Source: Neglectibacter sp. X58 (GTDB lineage Bacteria; Bacillota; Clostridia; Oscillospirales; Acutalibacteraceae). From it: a stretch of 64,000 nt of DNA. Numbering within the stretch: position 1 is the first letter of the stretch; each line of letters opens with the position of its first letter. Shown piece after piece: positions 1,265 through 64,000 of this stretch. The stretch is from contig NZ_QWEO01000001.1 in assembly GCF_009936035.1 (NCBI RefSeq), positions 124,001 through 188,000 of the forward strand, written 5' to 3'. The notes below the pieces were generated by a model. It was given only the letters and a program-made list of their open reading frames with translations. It did no database searches and was not told where the DNA came from. Both the position numbers and the translations under genes were made by a program.

Positions 1265-2191
1265 TCAGTCGTGGAACCTTGTTACAATATGCTTTTCGCT
1301 GTTTTCCGGGGAATAGGCAAACTCCTCCATATGCGCGCCCTTGAAAAAGTAAACGGGCTTTGCGGGCTTTGCAGAGGGGCCTTCAAAAGTTTCGATGATA
1401 ATCAGCTTGATTTTCATGCGGCTGGGCAGGATGCTCTTAATAAACACGCTGGCCTGCTGCCCGGGGAAGATGTTTTCCTTCAGTTCCGCAAGGCCCGCCA
1501 GGTTAGGGGCAAGCTCCACGAACACGCCGTAATTTTCAATGCTGCGTATGACGCCTCCCACAGTTTCCCCAGCCCGGAAGGACTGGACGTTTTCCTCCCA
1601 GGTGCCTAAAAGCTCTTTATGGGTCAGGGTGATGCGCTGGTTTTCCCGGGATTTCACCACAGCCCGGATGTCCATCCCCGGCAGGAAGCGCTCCCTGGGG
1701 TGCTCAATGCGGGAAACAGAGATGGAGTCGATGGGCAGCAGGGACACAATGCCGCAGCCGATATCGGCAAACACCCCAAAAGGCTCAATATGGGTGACCC
1801 GGGCGTCTATCACGTCTCCAGGGACAAGGCCAGCTATGTATTCGTCCCGGCACTTCTCCTGGGCGGCCCGGCGGGAGAGCAGGGCTGTGACGCGGCCCTG
1901 GCTGTCCCGGATAAAGTCCTGCACCAGAAAGCACACAGGGCGGTTCACCCGGGATATTACGGCAATATCCCGCACTGTGCCCTCCCGTATGCCCAAGGCC
2001 CCCTCCTCCCGGGGGATGACGCCTTTCATAAATTTGAAGTCCACAATCAAGTCATGGGAGCTGTCGCACATCACAGCCCTGGCTTCCAGTATTTTTCCCT
2101 CCCGCATGGCCTCCGACAGGGAGGCTGGGGAACTTAGGGCGGTTTTATTTTCAAAGCTGTCCAGTAAATAGCCTTCCGGATAAAATTTCAT
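1265..2191 (-). CDS. S1 RNA-binding domain protein, two S1 repeats
   Basis: A 308-residue protein of a clostridial family with a conserved N-terminal part (about residues 1-115, containing MCDSSHDLIVDF and the GVIPREEG, VISRVNRPVCF motifs) followed by two S1 domains (about 125-192 and 208-270; PFGVFADIG and NYGVFVELA). S1 domains bind single-stranded RNA, so a role in translation or RNA handling is likely, but the exact function is unknown. The frame stays open upstream to 2437; the start at 2191 was chosen because family similarity begins at MKFYPEGYLL. The ribosome site before it is weak, so the true start could be a non-ATG codon slightly upstream. Confidence 0.75.
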   Translation of the reverse strand: MKFYPEGYLLDSFENKTALSSPASLSEAMREGKILEARAVMCDSSHDLIVDFKFMKGVIPREEGALGIREGTVRDIAVISRVNRPVCFLVQDFIRDSQGRVTALLSRRAAQEKCRDEYIAGLVPGDVIDARVTHIEPFGVFADIGCGIVSLLPIDSISVSRIEHPRERFLPGMDIRAVVKSRENQRITLTHKELLGTWEENVQSFRAGETVGGVIRSIENYGVFVELAPNLAGLAELKENIFPGQQASVFIKSILPSRMKIKLIIIETFEGPSAKPAKPVYFFKGAHMEEFAYSPENSEKHIVTRFHD

Positions 2192-2431
2192 GTTTTCTGC
2201 CAAAAGATACGGGCTGTATGCACCACGGTATCGGTCCTTTCTTTTAGTATTTTCACGTGCGTCCGGCTGCAGGACAACCCTTTCCCGGCCTGCCCTCCTT
2301 TTTTCTGATACAGGGAAACTATATGCGGCAAAGGCGCAAAAAATGCGCCGGAAAGAGGGGGAATGAAAAGATGCGGCAGGGAACGGCGGGCGGAAAACCC
2401 CGGAACAAAGGCCCTGCCCGGCAGATAGGGC
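2192..2431. other. Intergenic region without a supported gene
   Basis: This stretch separates the divergent S1-domain and cyclophilin genes. A 66-codon plus-strand frame (2257-2457) has no plausible ribosome site and no recognisable product, and it runs into the cyclophilin promoter. No further structure is seen. Confidence 0.5.
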
Positions 2432-3372: not shown

Positions 3373-3423
3373 GGCCGCTGCCCCAAGTCCTGTGAAATCC
3401 TGTGGGATTGAAAATGTTTAAAG

Positions 3424-3478
3424 AAAGGAGGGGCGCTGGAGGCCTGGTTTCTGCGTCCAGCGCCCCATGGCGATTCAA
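3424..3478 (+). promoter_or_regulatory. SD-hairpin-ATGGCGATT start module, copy A
   Basis: AAAGGAGG (3424-3431) runs into an 11-bp perfect stem, GGGGCGCTGGA (3430-3440) with TCCAGCGCCCC (3456-3466), loop 15 nt. The ATG at 3467 follows the stem directly and reads ATG GCG ATT CAA before a second ATG at 3479. In linear sequence the SD is about 35 nt from the start, far beyond normal spacing; folding of the stem would bring it next to the ATG. No other ribosome site is seen near either ATG. Confidence 0.65.
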
Positions 3479-3973
3479 ATGGAGCATATTGTCACGTCCC
3501 TGGTGAATTTTTTCAGCCAGACCATCCCCGGGGAGCTAACCGTCTTTCTGCTGTCCCTGATGCCCGTTATTGAACTGCGGGGCGGGATTTTGGCGGCAAA
3601 GCTTCTGCATCTGGAGATGCTGCCCGCCTTTTTCATCTGCTTTGTGGGCACCATCCTGCCCACCCCTTTTATCCTGCTGTTTATCAACAAGATTTTTGAC
3701 TGGATGCGCAACACCCGCCTGGTGAAGCTTGTCAACCGCATGGAGGAAAAGGGCCGCAGCAAGTTTGACAAGATAAACCGCTATAAGACCCTGGGCCTGC
3801 TGATTTTCGTGGCGATCCCCCTGCCGGGCACAGGGGCGTGGACAGGCTCCCTGGCGGCGGCGCTGATGAAAATGGACTTTAAGTCCGCCATGATTTCCGT
3901 GGTGGGAGGCACCCTGGTGGCGGATGTTATCATGTGCCTGCTGTCCTATGGCCTTTTAGGACTGGTGGTATAG
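3467..3973 (+). CDS. Small multidrug-export family membrane protein (COG2426)
   Basis: A 168-residue polytopic membrane protein of the small multidrug-export family (PF06695, COG2426). Hydrophobic segments lie around residues 18-50, 50-70 and at the C-terminus, and it has the family's PVIELRGGI and PLPGTGAWTGSLAA stretches. The transport substrate is not established for the family. The first ATG gives an N-terminal MAIQ extension; the family-typical start would be the ATG at 3479 (MEHIVTSL). Only a hairpin-separated ribosome site serves either. The next gene begins 8 nt after its stop, so it probably heads an operon with the two flavoproteins. Confidence 0.8.
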   Translation: MAIQMEHIVTSLVNFFSQTIPGELTVFLLSLMPVIELRGGILAAKLLHLEMLPAFFICFVGTILPTPFILLFINKIFDWMRNTRLVKLVNRMEEKGRSKFDKINRYKTLGLLIFVAIPLPGTGAWTGSLAAALMKMDFKSAMISVVGGTLVADVIMCLLSYGLLGLVV

Positions 3974-27764: not shown

Positions 27765-29456
27765 ATGTCAATGCTGGTTGCGAAAGCCACCTGCGAACTG
27801 CGGGCGGCAGTAGGGCAGGCTATAGAAAAGGCCCAGGCGGCAGGGGAGCTTCCCCAGGCCCAGGCCCCGGAAATCGCTTTGGAGGTGCCCGGCGACCGCG
27901 CCCATGGGGACTGGGCCTGTAACGCTGCCATGGCAGGAGCCAGGGCCTTTAAAATGCCTCCTCGGAAGATTGCGGAGGCCATCCAGAAAAACCTGGATCT
28001 TTCCGCTACCTGCTTTCAAAGCTGCGAAATTGCGGGGCCTGGGTTCTTAAATTTCACCTATGCCCCCCGGTTTTACGGGGAAGTGCTCCAGGATGTCCAC
28101 AAGCTGGGCCGGGCTTACGGCAGCAGCGCCATGGGAGAGGGGAAACGGGTGCTGGTGGAGTTTGTTTCCGCCAATCCCACCGGCCCTATGCATATCGGCA
28201 ATGCCCGGGGCGGCGTGCTGGGAGACGCCCTTGCCGCCACCTTGGAAACCGCAGGCTATCAGGTGGAGCGGGAGTTTTACGTCAATGACGCAGGCAACCA
28301 GGTGAACAAGTTTGCCTGCTCCCTGGAGGCCCGATATCTCCAGATATATAAGGGGGAGGACGCGGTGCCCTTCCCAGAGGACGGCTATCAGGGAGAGGAC
28401 ATTAAAGAGCACGCCAGAAGCTTTGCGGAGAAATACAGCGACCAGTATGTGGAAGCGCCGGAAAGCGACAGGCGGCAGGCACTGGTGGACTTCGCCCTGC
28501 CTCAGAACATCCAGGGCCTCCATGATGACCTGCTGCGCTACCGGGTGGAATATAATAACTGGTTTAGGGAATCCACCCTCCATGAAAACGGCGCTGTAGG
28601 CCGGGTGGTAGAGCTGTTAAAGGAAAAAGGGGCCACCTATGAAAAGGAAGGGGCCGTCTGGTTTAAGGGGGAAGCATACGGCAGCGAGGACTTTGTGCTG
28701 GTGCGCGGGAATGGTGTGCCCACCTACGTGGTGCCGGACATCGCCTACCACTATGATAAACTGGTCACCCGGAACTTTGACATAGCCATTGACGTGCTGG
28801 GGGCTGACCACCATGGCTACGTGCCCCGGTTAAAGGCTGCCCTCACCGCCTTGGGTGTGGATGCTTCCCGCCTGCAAATTGTGCTGATGCAGATGGTGCG
28901 CCTGGTGCGGGACGGGGAGATTGTCAAGGCCAGCAAGCGCAGCGGCAAGGCCATCACCCTGGTAACCCTGCTGGAAGAGGTGCCTGTAGACGCGGCCCGG
29001 TTCCTCTTTAACTCTTACGAGCCTAACACCCGCATTGACTTCGATTTAGATTTGGCTGTCCAGCAGGACTCCCAGAATCCTGTATACTATGTGCAGTATG
29101 CCCACGCCCGGGTGTGCAGCATTTTGCGGAATCTGGCTGCCGACGGCGTCACCCCCCGGGAATGCGCCCTGGAGGAGTTGGGCCTGCTCACTGCCCCGGA
29201 AGAAGCAGAGTTAATCCGCCAGATTTCCGCCTATACAAGCGAGGTGGAGGGAGCGGCAAAGGCCATGGATCCGGCCCGCATCACCCGGTACGTTATGGCT
29301 CTGTCCACCCTGTTCCACAAATTCTACAATGCCTGCCGGGTGAAGGGGGATAATCCCGCCCTCACTGCCGCTAGGCTGTACCTCTGCACCGCTTTTAAGC
29401 AGGTGCTGGAAAACGGCCTGAGCCTGTTCAAGGTGACGGCTCCTGAAAGCATGTAA
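27765..29456 (+). CDS. argS: Arginyl-tRNA synthetase
   Basis: A 563-residue class I synthetase that charges tRNA(Arg). The Add-1 domain is N-terminal (about residues 1-100), the HIGH motif appears in SANPTGPMHIGNARGG (about 130-145), the KMSKS-loop region appears as VKASKRSGKAITL, and the C-terminal DALR anticodon-binding domain runs from about residue 435 (YAHARVCSILRNL). The length is normal. It closes a six-gene run of short intergenic gaps and is followed by a clear terminator. Confidence 0.95.
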   Translation: MSMLVAKATCELRAAVGQAIEKAQAAGELPQAQAPEIALEVPGDRAHGDWACNAAMAGARAFKMPPRKIAEAIQKNLDLSATCFQSCEIAGPGFLNFTYAPRFYGEVLQDVHKLGRAYGSSAMGEGKRVLVEFVSANPTGPMHIGNARGGVLGDALAATLETAGYQVEREFYVNDAGNQVNKFACSLEARYLQIYKGEDAVPFPEDGYQGEDIKEHARSFAEKYSDQYVEAPESDRRQALVDFALPQNIQGLHDDLLRYRVEYNNWFRESTLHENGAVGRVVELLKEKGATYEKEGAVWFKGEAYGSEDFVLVRGNGVPTYVVPDIAYHYDKLVTRNFDIAIDVLGADHHGYVPRLKAALTALGVDASRLQIVLMQMVRLVRDGEIVKASKRSGKAITLVTLLEEVPVDAARFLFNSYEPNTRIDFDLDLAVQQDSQNPVYYVQYAHARVCSILRNLAADGVTPRECALEELGLLTAPEEAELIRQISAYTSEVEGAAKAMDPARITRYVMALSTLFHKFYNACRVKGDNPALTAARLYLCTAFKQVLENGLSLFKVTAPESM

Positions 29457-29537
29457 ATGGTCATGGGATACAGGCTTCCCACGCAAAGCCGTGAAAAAGC
29501 GCCGCTTTGCGTCCGGTATCTTGTTTTTCATACCCTG

Positions 29538-29563
29538 CCCCAGCCAGACTGGCTGGGGTTTTG
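29538..29563 (+). terminator. Terminator after argS
   Basis: A perfect 8-bp stem CCCCAGCC/GGCTGGGG (29538-29545 with 29551-29558), 5-nt loop, followed by TTTT. Confidence 0.85.
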
Positions 29564-50453: not shown

Positions 50454-50500
50454 GCTTACAATAGGGCATGCAAAGAGAATGCAGAATGAAAAATATGGAA

Positions 50501-50577
50501 GGAAGGAGCGATACCGGGCACAAAAGGCTGCACTAAGGCCTTTTGCGCACACCCTGTATCGTATGGCGATTTAAATG
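50501..50577 (+). promoter_or_regulatory. SD-hairpin-ATGGCGATT start module, copy B (rapZ)
   Basis: GGAAGGAG (50501-50508) is followed at once by a hairpin: CGATAC/GTATCG (50509-50514 with 50556-50561), GGG/CCC, and CAAAAGGC/GCCTTTTG (50521-50528 with 50538-50545), loop 9 nt. After one base comes ATG GCG ATT TAA (50563-50574), a three-codon frame whose stop abuts the rapZ ATG at 50575 in the same frame. No other ribosome site precedes rapZ. Confidence 0.7.
50563..50574 (+). CDS. Three-codon leader frame (Met-Ala-Ile) before rapZ
   Basis: ATG GCG ATT TAA lies directly after the hairpin and ends at the base before the rapZ ATG. The same three codons begin the other two module-bearing genes in frame. 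It may be translated and coupled to rapZ by reinitiation; this is inference from position only. Confidence 0.35.
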   Translation: MAI

Positions 50578-51432
50578 GAATTTGTAATTGTAACGGGCCT
50601 TTCTGGCGCTGGCAAAACCAGGGCCATGCACGCCATGGAGGACATTGGCTTTTACTGCGTGGACAATCTCCCGCCGGCAATGATTCCGGTTTTTTATGAT
50701 TTGTGTGAAAAGTCTGAAGGCCTGGGCCGGGCGGCTGTAGTGACGGATACCCGGGGCGGGGAAATGTTCATGTCCTTTTTTACAGCCACCGAGGCTTTGA
50801 AGCGGGACAAAAAGCCTTTCAAAATTTTATTCTTGGATTCTTCCGATCAGGTGCTGGTTCACCGCTTTAAGGAAACCCGCCGCAAGCACCCCCTTTCCGA
50901 TGACTTGAACGGCTCTTTGGAGCAGGCAGTAAAGCTGGAGCGAGATATGCTTAAACTGGCCAAGGAGAACGCTGATTTTGTCATGGACACCTCAGGATTC
51001 TCCCCGGCCCAACTGAAAAACCGCATTGCGGAGCTGTTCTTAAACAGCGCCGGCGACTCCCTCTCTGTACTGTGCATCAGCTTCGGCTTTAAATTTGGCA
51101 TCCCCATGGAGGCAGATTTGGTGTTCGACGTGCGCTGCCTGCCCAATCCCTTTTACGACGAAAACCTGCGCCCCAAAACAGGCCTTGACCCAGAGGTGCG
51201 GGACTACGTAATGGATAAAGAGGAAACCCAGGGCTTTGCCGCCCGGTTTACGGATATGATAGACTACCTTCTGCCCCTGTATGCCCGGGAGGGCAAAAGC
51301 CAGCTTGTAATAGCTGTGGGGTGTACCGGCGGGCACCACCGCTCGGTGGCCCTGGCCCAGTATATGTGCGACCATTTGATCTCCAAGGGCGTGAAGGCCA
51401 GCGCTGCCCACCGGGATATGCAGAAATTCTGA
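50575..51432 (+). CDS. rapZ: RNase adapter / nucleotide-binding protein RapZ
   Basis: A 285-residue member of the RapZ/YvcJ family. The Walker A motif GLSGAGKT is at about residues 7-14, followed by AMEDIGFYCVDNLPPAMIP and DTRGG; the C-terminal half has ISFGFKFGIP, DVRCLPNPFY and GCTGGHHRSV. In E. coli RapZ binds glucosamine-6-phosphate and controls the amino-sugar enzyme GlmS through small RNAs; in Firmicutes the role is less defined. MEFVIVTGLSGAG is the family-typical start. It is followed after 18 nt by a P-loop kinase rather than yvcK. Confidence 0.94.
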   Translation: MEFVIVTGLSGAGKTRAMHAMEDIGFYCVDNLPPAMIPVFYDLCEKSEGLGRAAVVTDTRGGEMFMSFFTATEALKRDKKPFKILFLDSSDQVLVHRFKETRRKHPLSDDLNGSLEQAVKLERDMLKLAKENADFVMDTSGFSPAQLKNRIAELFLNSAGDSLSVLCISFGFKFGIPMEADLVFDVRCLPNPFYDENLRPKTGLDPEVRDYVMDKEETQGFAARFTDMIDYLLPLYAREGKSQLVIAVGCTGGHHRSVALAQYMCDHLISKGVKASAAHRDMQKF

Positions 51433-62837: not shown

Positions 62838-62884
62838 GGCAGGGGATATATGGAGAAAGGGCAGTTCGTGTGAAAAATACAAAG

Positions 62885-62963
62885 AAAGGAAGGATACCGG
62901 GCACAAAAGGCTGATAATTCCTCTCTTTTTGTGCGAATCCTGTATCGCATGGCAATTTTCATG
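62885..62963 (+). promoter_or_regulatory. SD-hairpin-ATGGCAATT start module, copy C (nagA)
   Basis: AAAGGAAGG (62885-62893) is followed by a hairpin: GATAC/GTATC (62893-62897 with 62942-62946), GG/CC, and GCACAAAA/TTTTGTGC (62901-62908 with 62927-62934). Two bases later ATG GCA ATT TTC (62949-62960) precedes the family-typical ATG at 62961. The 5' arm 62893-62913 is identical, base for base, to 50510-50530 upstream of rapZ, while the loops differ. No other ribosome site is present. Confidence 0.72.
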
Positions 62964-64000
62964 TTTCTCATAAATGCAGCGTACTATGATAAGAACTTTC
63001 AGCTTGCCCGGGGGGATATTGAGATAGAAAACGGGCGCATCCGACAGGTGGGGGAGAAGCTTCCCTACACCCAGAAGGATTTGGCTGTAGACTGCCAGGG
63101 CTACACCATCGTTCCCGGCTTTGTGGATATCCATATACATGGCTGCAATGGCGCGGACGCCTGTGACGGCACCCGGGAGTCCCTGGATATTATGGCGAAA
63201 TTCCTCCTCCAGCATGGGGTAACCTCTTTCTGCCCCACCACCATGACCACCGGGGAAGAAGTTATCCAAAAGGCCCTCCTTGCCGCAAAGGAATGTGCCG
63301 ATAAGCCTTTGGAGGACGGGGCAAGGGTTGTGGGTGTGAACATGGAAGGGCCTTTCATCTCTGTGGAAAAGAAGGGCGCCCAGAAGGCAGAGTACATTGT
63401 GCCTCCAGACTTTTCCCTGTTCGAGAAATATTTTGAACGGAGCGGCGGCCTTGTGCGGCTGGTGGACATTGCCCCGGAGCAGCCAGGGGGATATGACTTT
63501 GCCCAAAAGGCCAGCAGGCTGTGTACGGTTTCCATTGCCCACACCACAGCAGGCTTTGACGAAGCCAAGACTGCTTTTGACAGCGGCGTTACCCATGCCA
63601 CCCATCTTTTTAACGCCATGTCCGGCTTGAGCCACCGGGCCCCCGGGGTGGTAGGGGCTGTTTTGGCTGATTCCCGGGTGTGTGCAGAGCTTATCTGCGA
63701 CGGCATACACATCCATCCGGCTGTCCTGCAAACAGCCTTCCAGGTTTTAGGGAAGCGGGCCATTGTGATAAGCGATTCCATGCGGGCCAACGGCATGCCG
63801 GAGGGAGAGCCTTTTGACCTGGGGGGCCAGCAGGTCACAGTGCATGATGGCAAGGCAGTGCTGGCAGACGGCACCATTGCAGGGTCAGTGGCAAACCTCC
63901 ACCAGGAGGTAAAGAACCTGGTTTCCTGGGGCATTCCCCTGGGGCAGGCCCTGGAGGCCGCCACGCTGTCTCCGGCAAAGGCCATTGGGCTGGAAAAGGA
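62949..64000 (+). CDS. nagA: N-acetylglucosamine-6-phosphate deacetylase, 3' end outside the window
   Basis: The first 350 codons of an amidohydrolase that deacetylates GlcNAc-6-phosphate, the entry step of amino-sugar catabolism and cell-wall recycling. Metal and substrate motifs: GFVDIHIHGCNGADA, NMEGPFIS (metal Glu), SIAHTTAGF and THLFNAMSGL (metal His residues), DGIHIHP, and SDSMRANG with the catalytic Asp. Starting at the first ATG gives an N-terminal MAIF extension; the family-typical start would be MFLINAAYY at 62961. The gene continues past position 64000. Confidence 0.9.
   Translation, partial: MAIFMFLINAAYYDKNFQLARGDIEIENGRIRQVGEKLPYTQKDLAVDCQGYTIVPGFVDIHIHGCNGADACDGTRESLDIMAKFLLQHGVTSFCPTTMTTGEEVIQKALLAAKECADKPLEDGARVVGVNMEGPFISVEKKGAQKAEYIVPPDFSLFEKYFERSGGLVRLVDIAPEQPGGYDFAQKASRLCTVSIAHTTAGFDEAKTAFDSGVTHATHLFNAMSGLSHRAPGVVGAVLADSRVCAELICDGIHIHPAVLQTAFQVLGKRAIVISDSMRANGMPEGEPFDLGGQQVTVHDGKAVLADGTIAGSVANLHQEVKNLVSWGIPLGQALEAATLSPAKAIGLEK

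Follow-up and report, generated by a model that had tools for sequence, protein, structure and literature searches.

The repeat that immediately precedes rapZ in Neglectibacter sp. X58 belongs to a family of ~94 nt, of which at least 98 members were matched by a covariance model (R1, E ≤ 1) in the 3.36 Mb host genome, and we consider it, on balance, probable that the family consists of ~90-nt non-coding elements dispersed through the genome, each carrying a portable ribosome-binding site split by a hairpin. The members share an A-rich leader, a Shine-Dalgarno (SD) sequence AGAAAGGA, a hairpin, the motif RYGGYGRTT and, usually 3–4 nt further on, the true start codon. The first-pass annotation of the window (the whole stretch of 64,000 nt that was analysed; Table 1) had noticed an SD, a hairpin and ATGGCRATT in succession at rapZ, nagA and a small exporter gene, with a second ATG 12 nt after the first, and had taken this for a reusable module of the lineage. 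The layout was confirmed from the sequence at all three genes and the ATG spacing holds in 3/3, while the idea of a module is borne out by the matches in the host genome and by copies in related genomes.

Table 1. Element copies and associated genes in the window, with the basis of each assignment.
Feature	Position	Strand	Basis
Element copy before exporter gene, with unrelated 11-bp hairpin	3410..3481	+	Sequence, pattern; missed by R1
Small multidrug-export-like protein gene	3479..3973	+	PF06695; the name COG2426 comes from the first-pass annotation
Element copy with short hairpin before S1-domain gene (start at 2191)	2189..2255	-	R1 30.0 bits, sequence, PF00575
Decayed copy with weak SD, followed by a 46-codon ORF only	29450..29543	-	R1 48.3 bits
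Element copy before rapZ, A-rich leader through start codon	50487..50577	+	R1 87.6 bits, E 1.8e-16
SD of the rapZ copy itself, AAGGAAGGAG	50499..50508	+	Read from sequence
Hairpin of the rapZ copy	50509..50561	+	Fold, covariation over 103 copies
Conserved right-end block of the rapZ copy, ATGGCGATT	50563..50571	+	Sequence, column counts
rapZ, true start ATG at 50575	50575..51432	+	PF03668/PF22740, NF003828; 24 readable relatives start there
Element copy before nagA	62870..62963	+	R1 105.9 bits, sequence
nagA, start ATG at 62961, continuing past the window	62961..64000	+	TIGR00221

At rapZ the repeat begins at about 50487 and extends as far as the start codon (50575–50577), which takes it outside the 50501–50577 originally delimited. 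Its SD core AAGGAG lies at 50503–50508, the outer stem of the hairpin pairs CGATAC (50509–50514) with GTATCG (50556–50561), and the fold predicted for 50495–50595 has −29.6 kcal/mol (z −2.1). The nagA copy has its SD at 62885–62890, GATAC (62893–62897) paired with GTATC (62942–62946), and ATGs at 62949 and 62961. The exporter copy shares the flanks of these two, but its hairpin is wholly different: between the SD (3424–3430) and GGCGATT (3469–3475), GGGGCGCTGGA (3430–3440) pairs with TCCAGCGCCCC (3456–3466), and of the ATGs at 3467 and 3479 the latter is the start. The orthologue of the S1-domain gene in the related genome G001 likewise bears an element, as read by eye. Taken by itself ATGGCRATT occurs in the window in an unsurprising number, with 5 matches vs. 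2.0 expected and 6 of 100 shuffles reaching 5, and two of the five (41423 and 42372) lie inside long open reading frames (ORFs).

The module as a whole far exceeds chance, given the number of model matches and two pattern counts in the host genome, where AAAGGA-gap-CATGGCGATT matched 19 times vs. 0 for its reversed pattern and GGYGATTNNNATG 50 times vs. 0. Of the 19, C64:29803 does not resemble an element copy; 28 of the 50 coincide with model matches and 22 do not, and among 8 of these 22 that were read, 2 are element copies. R1 was built on an alignment (A1) of 30 copies and scored 150 of 2178 first-look candidates in the host; since three copies escape it (the exporter copy, C102:98534 and C138:9565), the true copy number is probably somewhat higher than 98. 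An 80-nt query returned 41 BLAST matches in the same genome (E ≤ 10, self included). For inspection, 93 of the 98 host copies were extracted and 3 further matches were read separately. A larger alignment (A2) comprises 103 copies, 91 host rows and 12 from relatives, drawn from 98 loci; it excludes L056, L162, L177 and L178, the relatives' L066–L071, L076, L078, L079, L081, L082 and L084, and also L001–L030, which duplicate host copies, host copies C101:10913 and C102:84317 being thus absent. In A2 the SD motif AAAGGA is exact in 75/103 copies, and the columns of the SD core AAGG carry one letter in 93–98% of the 103.

The first-pass annotation had let its proposal stand or fall with further copies in related genomes and with compensatory changes in the stem. 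Further copies were readily found: in a draw from the genus at least 11 of 29 genomes had matches, as compared with 0 of 31 other genomes, and a draw of 300 genomes from the family, with 14 candidates scored in each, yielded the element in at least 18 genomes and at least 12 of 135 genera. A pattern scan of named records returned 15 stretches, assigned to Oscillospiraceae, Ruminococcaceae, Clostridia/Clostridiales or Neglectibacter, and no element match was found in the phage and plasmid collections, so that carriage by either was rejected.

Most copies sit right at the start of a gene. In 74 of the 93 host copies an ORF of at least 60 aa (at least 100 aa in 71 of them) starts −2 to +6 nt after GGCGATT, compared with 16.3% of 20,000 positions drawn at random within these loci, for which, less strictly, any start was accepted. 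The gap between GGCGATT and the start could be counted in 81 of the 93 copies, the other 12 having no ORF of at least 60 aa nearby, and was 3 nt in 50 and 4 nt in 14. Likewise, in other genera of the family the 13 loci printed (of 15) all have an ORF starting at the expected place. Among the 19 host copies that lack an ORF in this position are the upstream copies of three tandem pairs (on C101, C32 and C161), as well as copies whose gene starts 22–37 nt later. The tandem pairs lie at C101:10913–11096, C32:28817–28994 and C161:70761–70956, the second copy in each being right at the start codon. At dapA and C57:3614 another SD follows the element, so the split ribosome-binding site is not needed there. 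There are 76 downstream proteins of at least 100 aa, and 25 of 30 that were scanned had a Pfam match; the genes carrying the element encode Lgt, TruB, DapA, a PRA-PH protein (HisE type), RapZ, an amidohydrolase (NagA), YceG, an RNB nuclease, FliS, a ParA-like protein, a hydrogenase and others. Among the carrying genes, which include lgt, truB, dapA, rapZ and the parA-like gene, some are usually essential, and translation presumably persists for that reason.

Comparison with relatives revealed many empty sites. At bcp the SD and the ATG are contiguous in all 13 of the other close loci, which come from 12 genomes of the genus, and in genome G027 AAAAGGAGGATGTTAGT is still there but is separated from the ATG by 91 nt of element; these are the 14 close matches that were read, 8 distant ones (E above 1e-6) being set aside. 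The rapZ element is absent in all 24 readable relatives (26 loci, 2 of them cut by contig ends). G001 lacks the element, as judged by eye, at 20 of the 22 host genes compared, which are gene pairs of at least 60% identity found in the 778 kb examined of its 3.8 Mb; a permissive regular expression flagged 3 of the 22 loci as element-like, one of which (C89:219405) is by eye an ordinary leader. Left flanks often still show the upstream SD, and they resemble the relative's own leader only modestly (7.4 vs. 6.1 of 22 positions, 16 pairs). The copies of G027 have the consensus GTGAAAAATACGCAGAAAGGAACGATACCGGGCACAAAA...TTTTGTGCGAATTCTGTATCGCATGGCGATTRAYATG, and six of them, of equal core length and at different genes, are 90–97% identical over 73 nt. 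From these comparisons the element behaves as an insertion that is absent from most relatives at the same genes, a feature missed by the first-pass annotation, and its many dispersed, short, non-coding copies with empty sites in relatives are those of a miniature inverted-repeat transposable element (MITE). Across 61 copies the left flank matched the right one no better than by chance, and no target-site duplication was seen; at the dapA locus TGACTGA stands on both sides of the element (by eye). Upstream of the G001 orthologue of C138:109476, GGTATGGGCGATTTTTTT follows the promoter and resembles, by eye, a right-end remnant without the hairpin.

In the reading that we favor, the elements would spread through the genome and land mostly between the SD of a gene and its start codon, oriented with the gene. 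With its native SD moved ~100 nt off, the gene should fall silent; it would stay active through the replacement that the element brings, namely an A-rich leader and an SD that complements the final 8 nt of 16S rRNA. The hairpin starts 1–2 nt after this SD, and its foot would bring SD and start codon to ~14 nt, as in genes 25 and 38 of phage T4.

The compensatory changes are indeed present in the stem. Over the 103 copies of A2, 91.7% of the 1617 cells in the 17 pairs of the hairpin are paired, as against 38–69% in controls with a slid register, and changes on both sides occur in 15/17 pairs, amounting to 72 cells vs. 28.5 in shuffles (0/500 as high), a comparison inflated by related copies in that the shuffles leave relatedness in place, and made on an alignment fitted to the model. 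For these reasons we relied also on copies whose stems are changed, as seen by eye in the exporter copy, C161:25223, C102:78703 and C150:109818; in addition, orthologous elements of the host and G001 (C89:282749 and L081) differ in their interiors and keep the outer stem. At the third pair from the foot, A-U occurs in 62 copies, G-C in 21, G-U in 18 and other combinations in 2. G-U cells number 211 vs. 256 under independence and A-C cells 51 vs. 87.5, and this lesser depletion of G-U suggests a modest signature of RNA read from the sense strand.

The evidence from stems and SD also bears on the possibility that we are dealing with an insertion element that prefers start codons, the hairpin and ends being DNA-level recognition sites for an enzyme and the SD-like sequence incidental. 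Such an element would have the defined ends, the patchy distribution with empty sites and the near-identity of G027 copies at different genes, and insertion specificity alone would give a constant distance from foot to start. We nonetheless regard it as unlikely: the exporter copy keeps SD, stem and spacing despite its wholly different hairpin, the SD core is nearly invariant, the G-U cells lean modestly toward RNA, and an insertion without a working ribosome-binding site would be expected to silence lgt and truB.

Apart from its outer stem the hairpin is variable, with an interior that differs in length and sequence and a loop that is not conserved, and this weighs against another alternative, a cis-regulatory RNA that would switch many genes together through protein binding to the hairpin or a condition-dependent change in it. 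The occurrence of the same structured leader at 74/93 loci would be in keeping with a regulon of this kind, as would a second small hairpin, ATCGC/GCGAT, overlapping the first. Covariation in the latter is weak (13 double-change cells vs. 7.0 shuffled, 3/500, and changed pairs, 3 vs. 3.2, not above the shuffle), and it was not retained. No common pathway was found among the 30 downstream genes scanned, orthologues are mostly without the element, and Rfam returned no match for the window at the gathering threshold; a regulon is thus, in our judgment, quite improbable. At E ≤ 1 the rapZ copy gave one chance match in Rfam, at 12.4 bits, to a lncRNA model with a cut-off of 45.

To return to the hairpin-split ribosome-binding site, the distances are in line with it. 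In 69 host copies the linear distance from SD to start is 34–73 nt (median 69), and across the foot of each copy's own predicted hairpin it is 12–17 nt in 51/69 (median 14), the 18 outliers ranging from 1 to 39 nt. When the consensus stem is imposed in fixed register, the distance becomes 14 nt in 48, 15 in 13 and 13 in 3 of the 69, which is not independent evidence because this value is set by the gap between GGCGATT and the start. Ordinary leaders measure ~10 nt in the same way (bcp, by eye), shorter than the 14 nt of the element. The spacer is more stably folded than shuffled versions of it (mean z −2.2; z below −1 in 53/69), and in the predicted folds at least 5/6 of the SD is unpaired in 43/69 copies; all three bases of the start codon are unpaired in only 22/69, which counts against a simple, always-open model. 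An SD too distant from its start, with a hairpin in between, is what defines the T4-type site, and the modeled distances and the covarying stem suggest the same arrangement here, so that the hairpin may shorten the distance from SD to start in vivo. The hairpin of T4 gene 38 cuts the distance between SD and AUG from 22 to 5 nt and that of gene 25 from 27 to 11 nt (PMC3014915), SD and AUG being too far apart, as in the element, and brought together by the intervening hairpin. In T4 each case is a single inherited leader and is supported by experiment, whereas the element has ~100 copies in one genome and is known from sequence; variable hairpins and evidence of insertion are peculiar to the element. 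Hairpin-split initiation sites previously came from single phage genes, and the ~100 natural variants in this one genome, with more in related genera, form a natural series in stem length, sequence and spacing with which to ask how much structure between SD and AUG the ribosome tolerates.

The 16S rRNA tail read in the host genome is GGATCACCTCCTTTCT, with AGAAAGGAGGTGATCC as its ideal mRNA partner. To the left of the hairpin, AGAAAGGA forms 8/8 pairs with this tail (G-U allowed) in 82/103 copies, and to the right of it GGYGAT forms at least 5/6 pairs in 72/103, with a mean for the right 6-mer of 4.75 in register vs. at most 3.21 at other offsets. The third base of GGCGAT is C in 81/103 copies, a mismatch to the tail, and T, which would pair, in 18/103. 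Judged by this complementarity, AGAAAGGA and GGYGAT would, without the hairpin, make a nearly perfect SD at normal spacing. The conserved GGYGAT may thus extend the pairing, the two parts being an approximately contiguous complement of the 16S tail AUCACCUCCUUUCU, and the hairpin-split pairing would then sit at the normal SD distance. Taken further, though only tentatively and as something that we hold less likely than not, the element could be a mobile DNA specialized for start codons, able to insert between SD and AUG because its hairpin splits a near-ideal SD and the 30S subunit reads past the hairpin at its foot; the SD/AUG sequence itself might serve as its target. It would then be the initiation-stage counterpart of mitochondrial bypassing elements (byps), which are spreading hairpin inserts passed over by the translation machinery; byps lie within coding regions, whereas the element lies before the start codon.

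Which ATG starts the gene was a point on which the first-pass annotation could not be followed. It had taken ATG-GCR-ATT as the start, with the Met-Ala-Ile codons as part of the module; the first ATG is often absent or out of frame, and at rapZ it runs into a stop (ATG GCG ATT TAA ATG). The relatives of rapZ begin at the second ATG, which by this comparison is the gene start. The first ATG is intact in 67/103 aligned copies, and of 69 host copies whose start is unambiguous, 34 have it in frame, 13 have it out of frame and 22 lack it. Nothing points to selection for keeping the first ATG in frame, since its place is in frame as often in copies without it (16/22) as in those that have it (34/47). 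The expected conservation of ATGGCRATT holds for the block as a whole, and the ATG is neither its best nor much its worst conserved part: the letters of ATGGCGATT are found in 76 (A), 84 (T), 100 (G), 95 (G), 81 (C), 86 (G), 81 (A), 88 (T) and 87 (T) of 103 copies, and these similar counts indicate that it is conserved as a unit, as the right end of the element. Gene finders may misplace starts (first ATG for second) and ribosome-binding sites at carrying genes.

The reading frames are informative about leader-peptide coupling as well, in which the native SD would initiate at the GTG that is the element's first codon and a leader of ~29 codons would stop on or close to the ATG of the gene (TGA-T-ATG or ATGA), followed by reinitiation. 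At bcp a GTG does sit at the native start position, and the G027 copies L071, L077 and L083 are open, by eye, from the GTG to a stop touching the gene ATG. A conserved leader frame was not found in 61 copies, the set also used for target duplication: element length modulo 3 is 1, 2 and 0 in 26, 24 and 11 of them, and stops near the start occur in 26, 6 and 20 in the three frames. The internal SD and the covarying stem would, moreover, be superfluous, and we give this coupling very little credence.

Our preferred reading, that of an interspersed repeat with its own initiation site, calls for comparison with known repeats. REP elements are short hairpin repeats mobilized by RAYT (Y1) transposases. 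The element resembles them in being a short hairpin repeat in a genome with Y1 transposase genes, but no element-like sequence lies beside the Y1 loci compared. A lookup of Y1 transposases in 11 genomes gave 13 matches, and the 10 loci compared with a typed consensus showed only chance-level matches of 9–11 nt; IS200/IS605-like ends were seen by eye at 2 of 6 printed loci, and an origin of the RAYT/REP kind was discarded. The host Y1 (IS200/IS605-type) transposase genes at L209, L213 and L215, two of them with internal stop codons, are unrelated to the element. No mobilizing enzyme was found in this search of the Y1 family. The pneumococcal BOX and RUP repeats (small interspersed repeats/MITEs) are, like the element, short, non-coding, multicopy and lineage-specific (PMC3049150); the element differs in occupying mostly one type of site (native SD/start codon, in sense), in having its own SD and in that no target duplication was found. 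The literature search retrieved no description of this family, subscription papers being thinly covered, so that the absence of one is unproven. If our reading is true, the family would be an interspersed repeat that spares its host by supplying a replacement translation start.

End patterns of the element occur in the host genome at 29 places (left end) and 27 places (right end); beyond the model list only one left end (C138:9565) and no right end remain, and a longer autonomous copy was therefore rejected as a candidate. In the copy at C138:9565 (L309, ~1566–1790) the loop holds a second insert, MITE-like and with TTAGGGCTTGTTTGAAAA...TTTTCAAACAAGCCCTAA as terminal inverted repeats, whose end sequence is also present just left of another copy in L311. 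In another Ruminococcaceae assembly (L114, reverse strand from 3437), a copy preceding a purD-like gene (by eye) contains ~180 extra nt in the hairpin loop, with both arms present.
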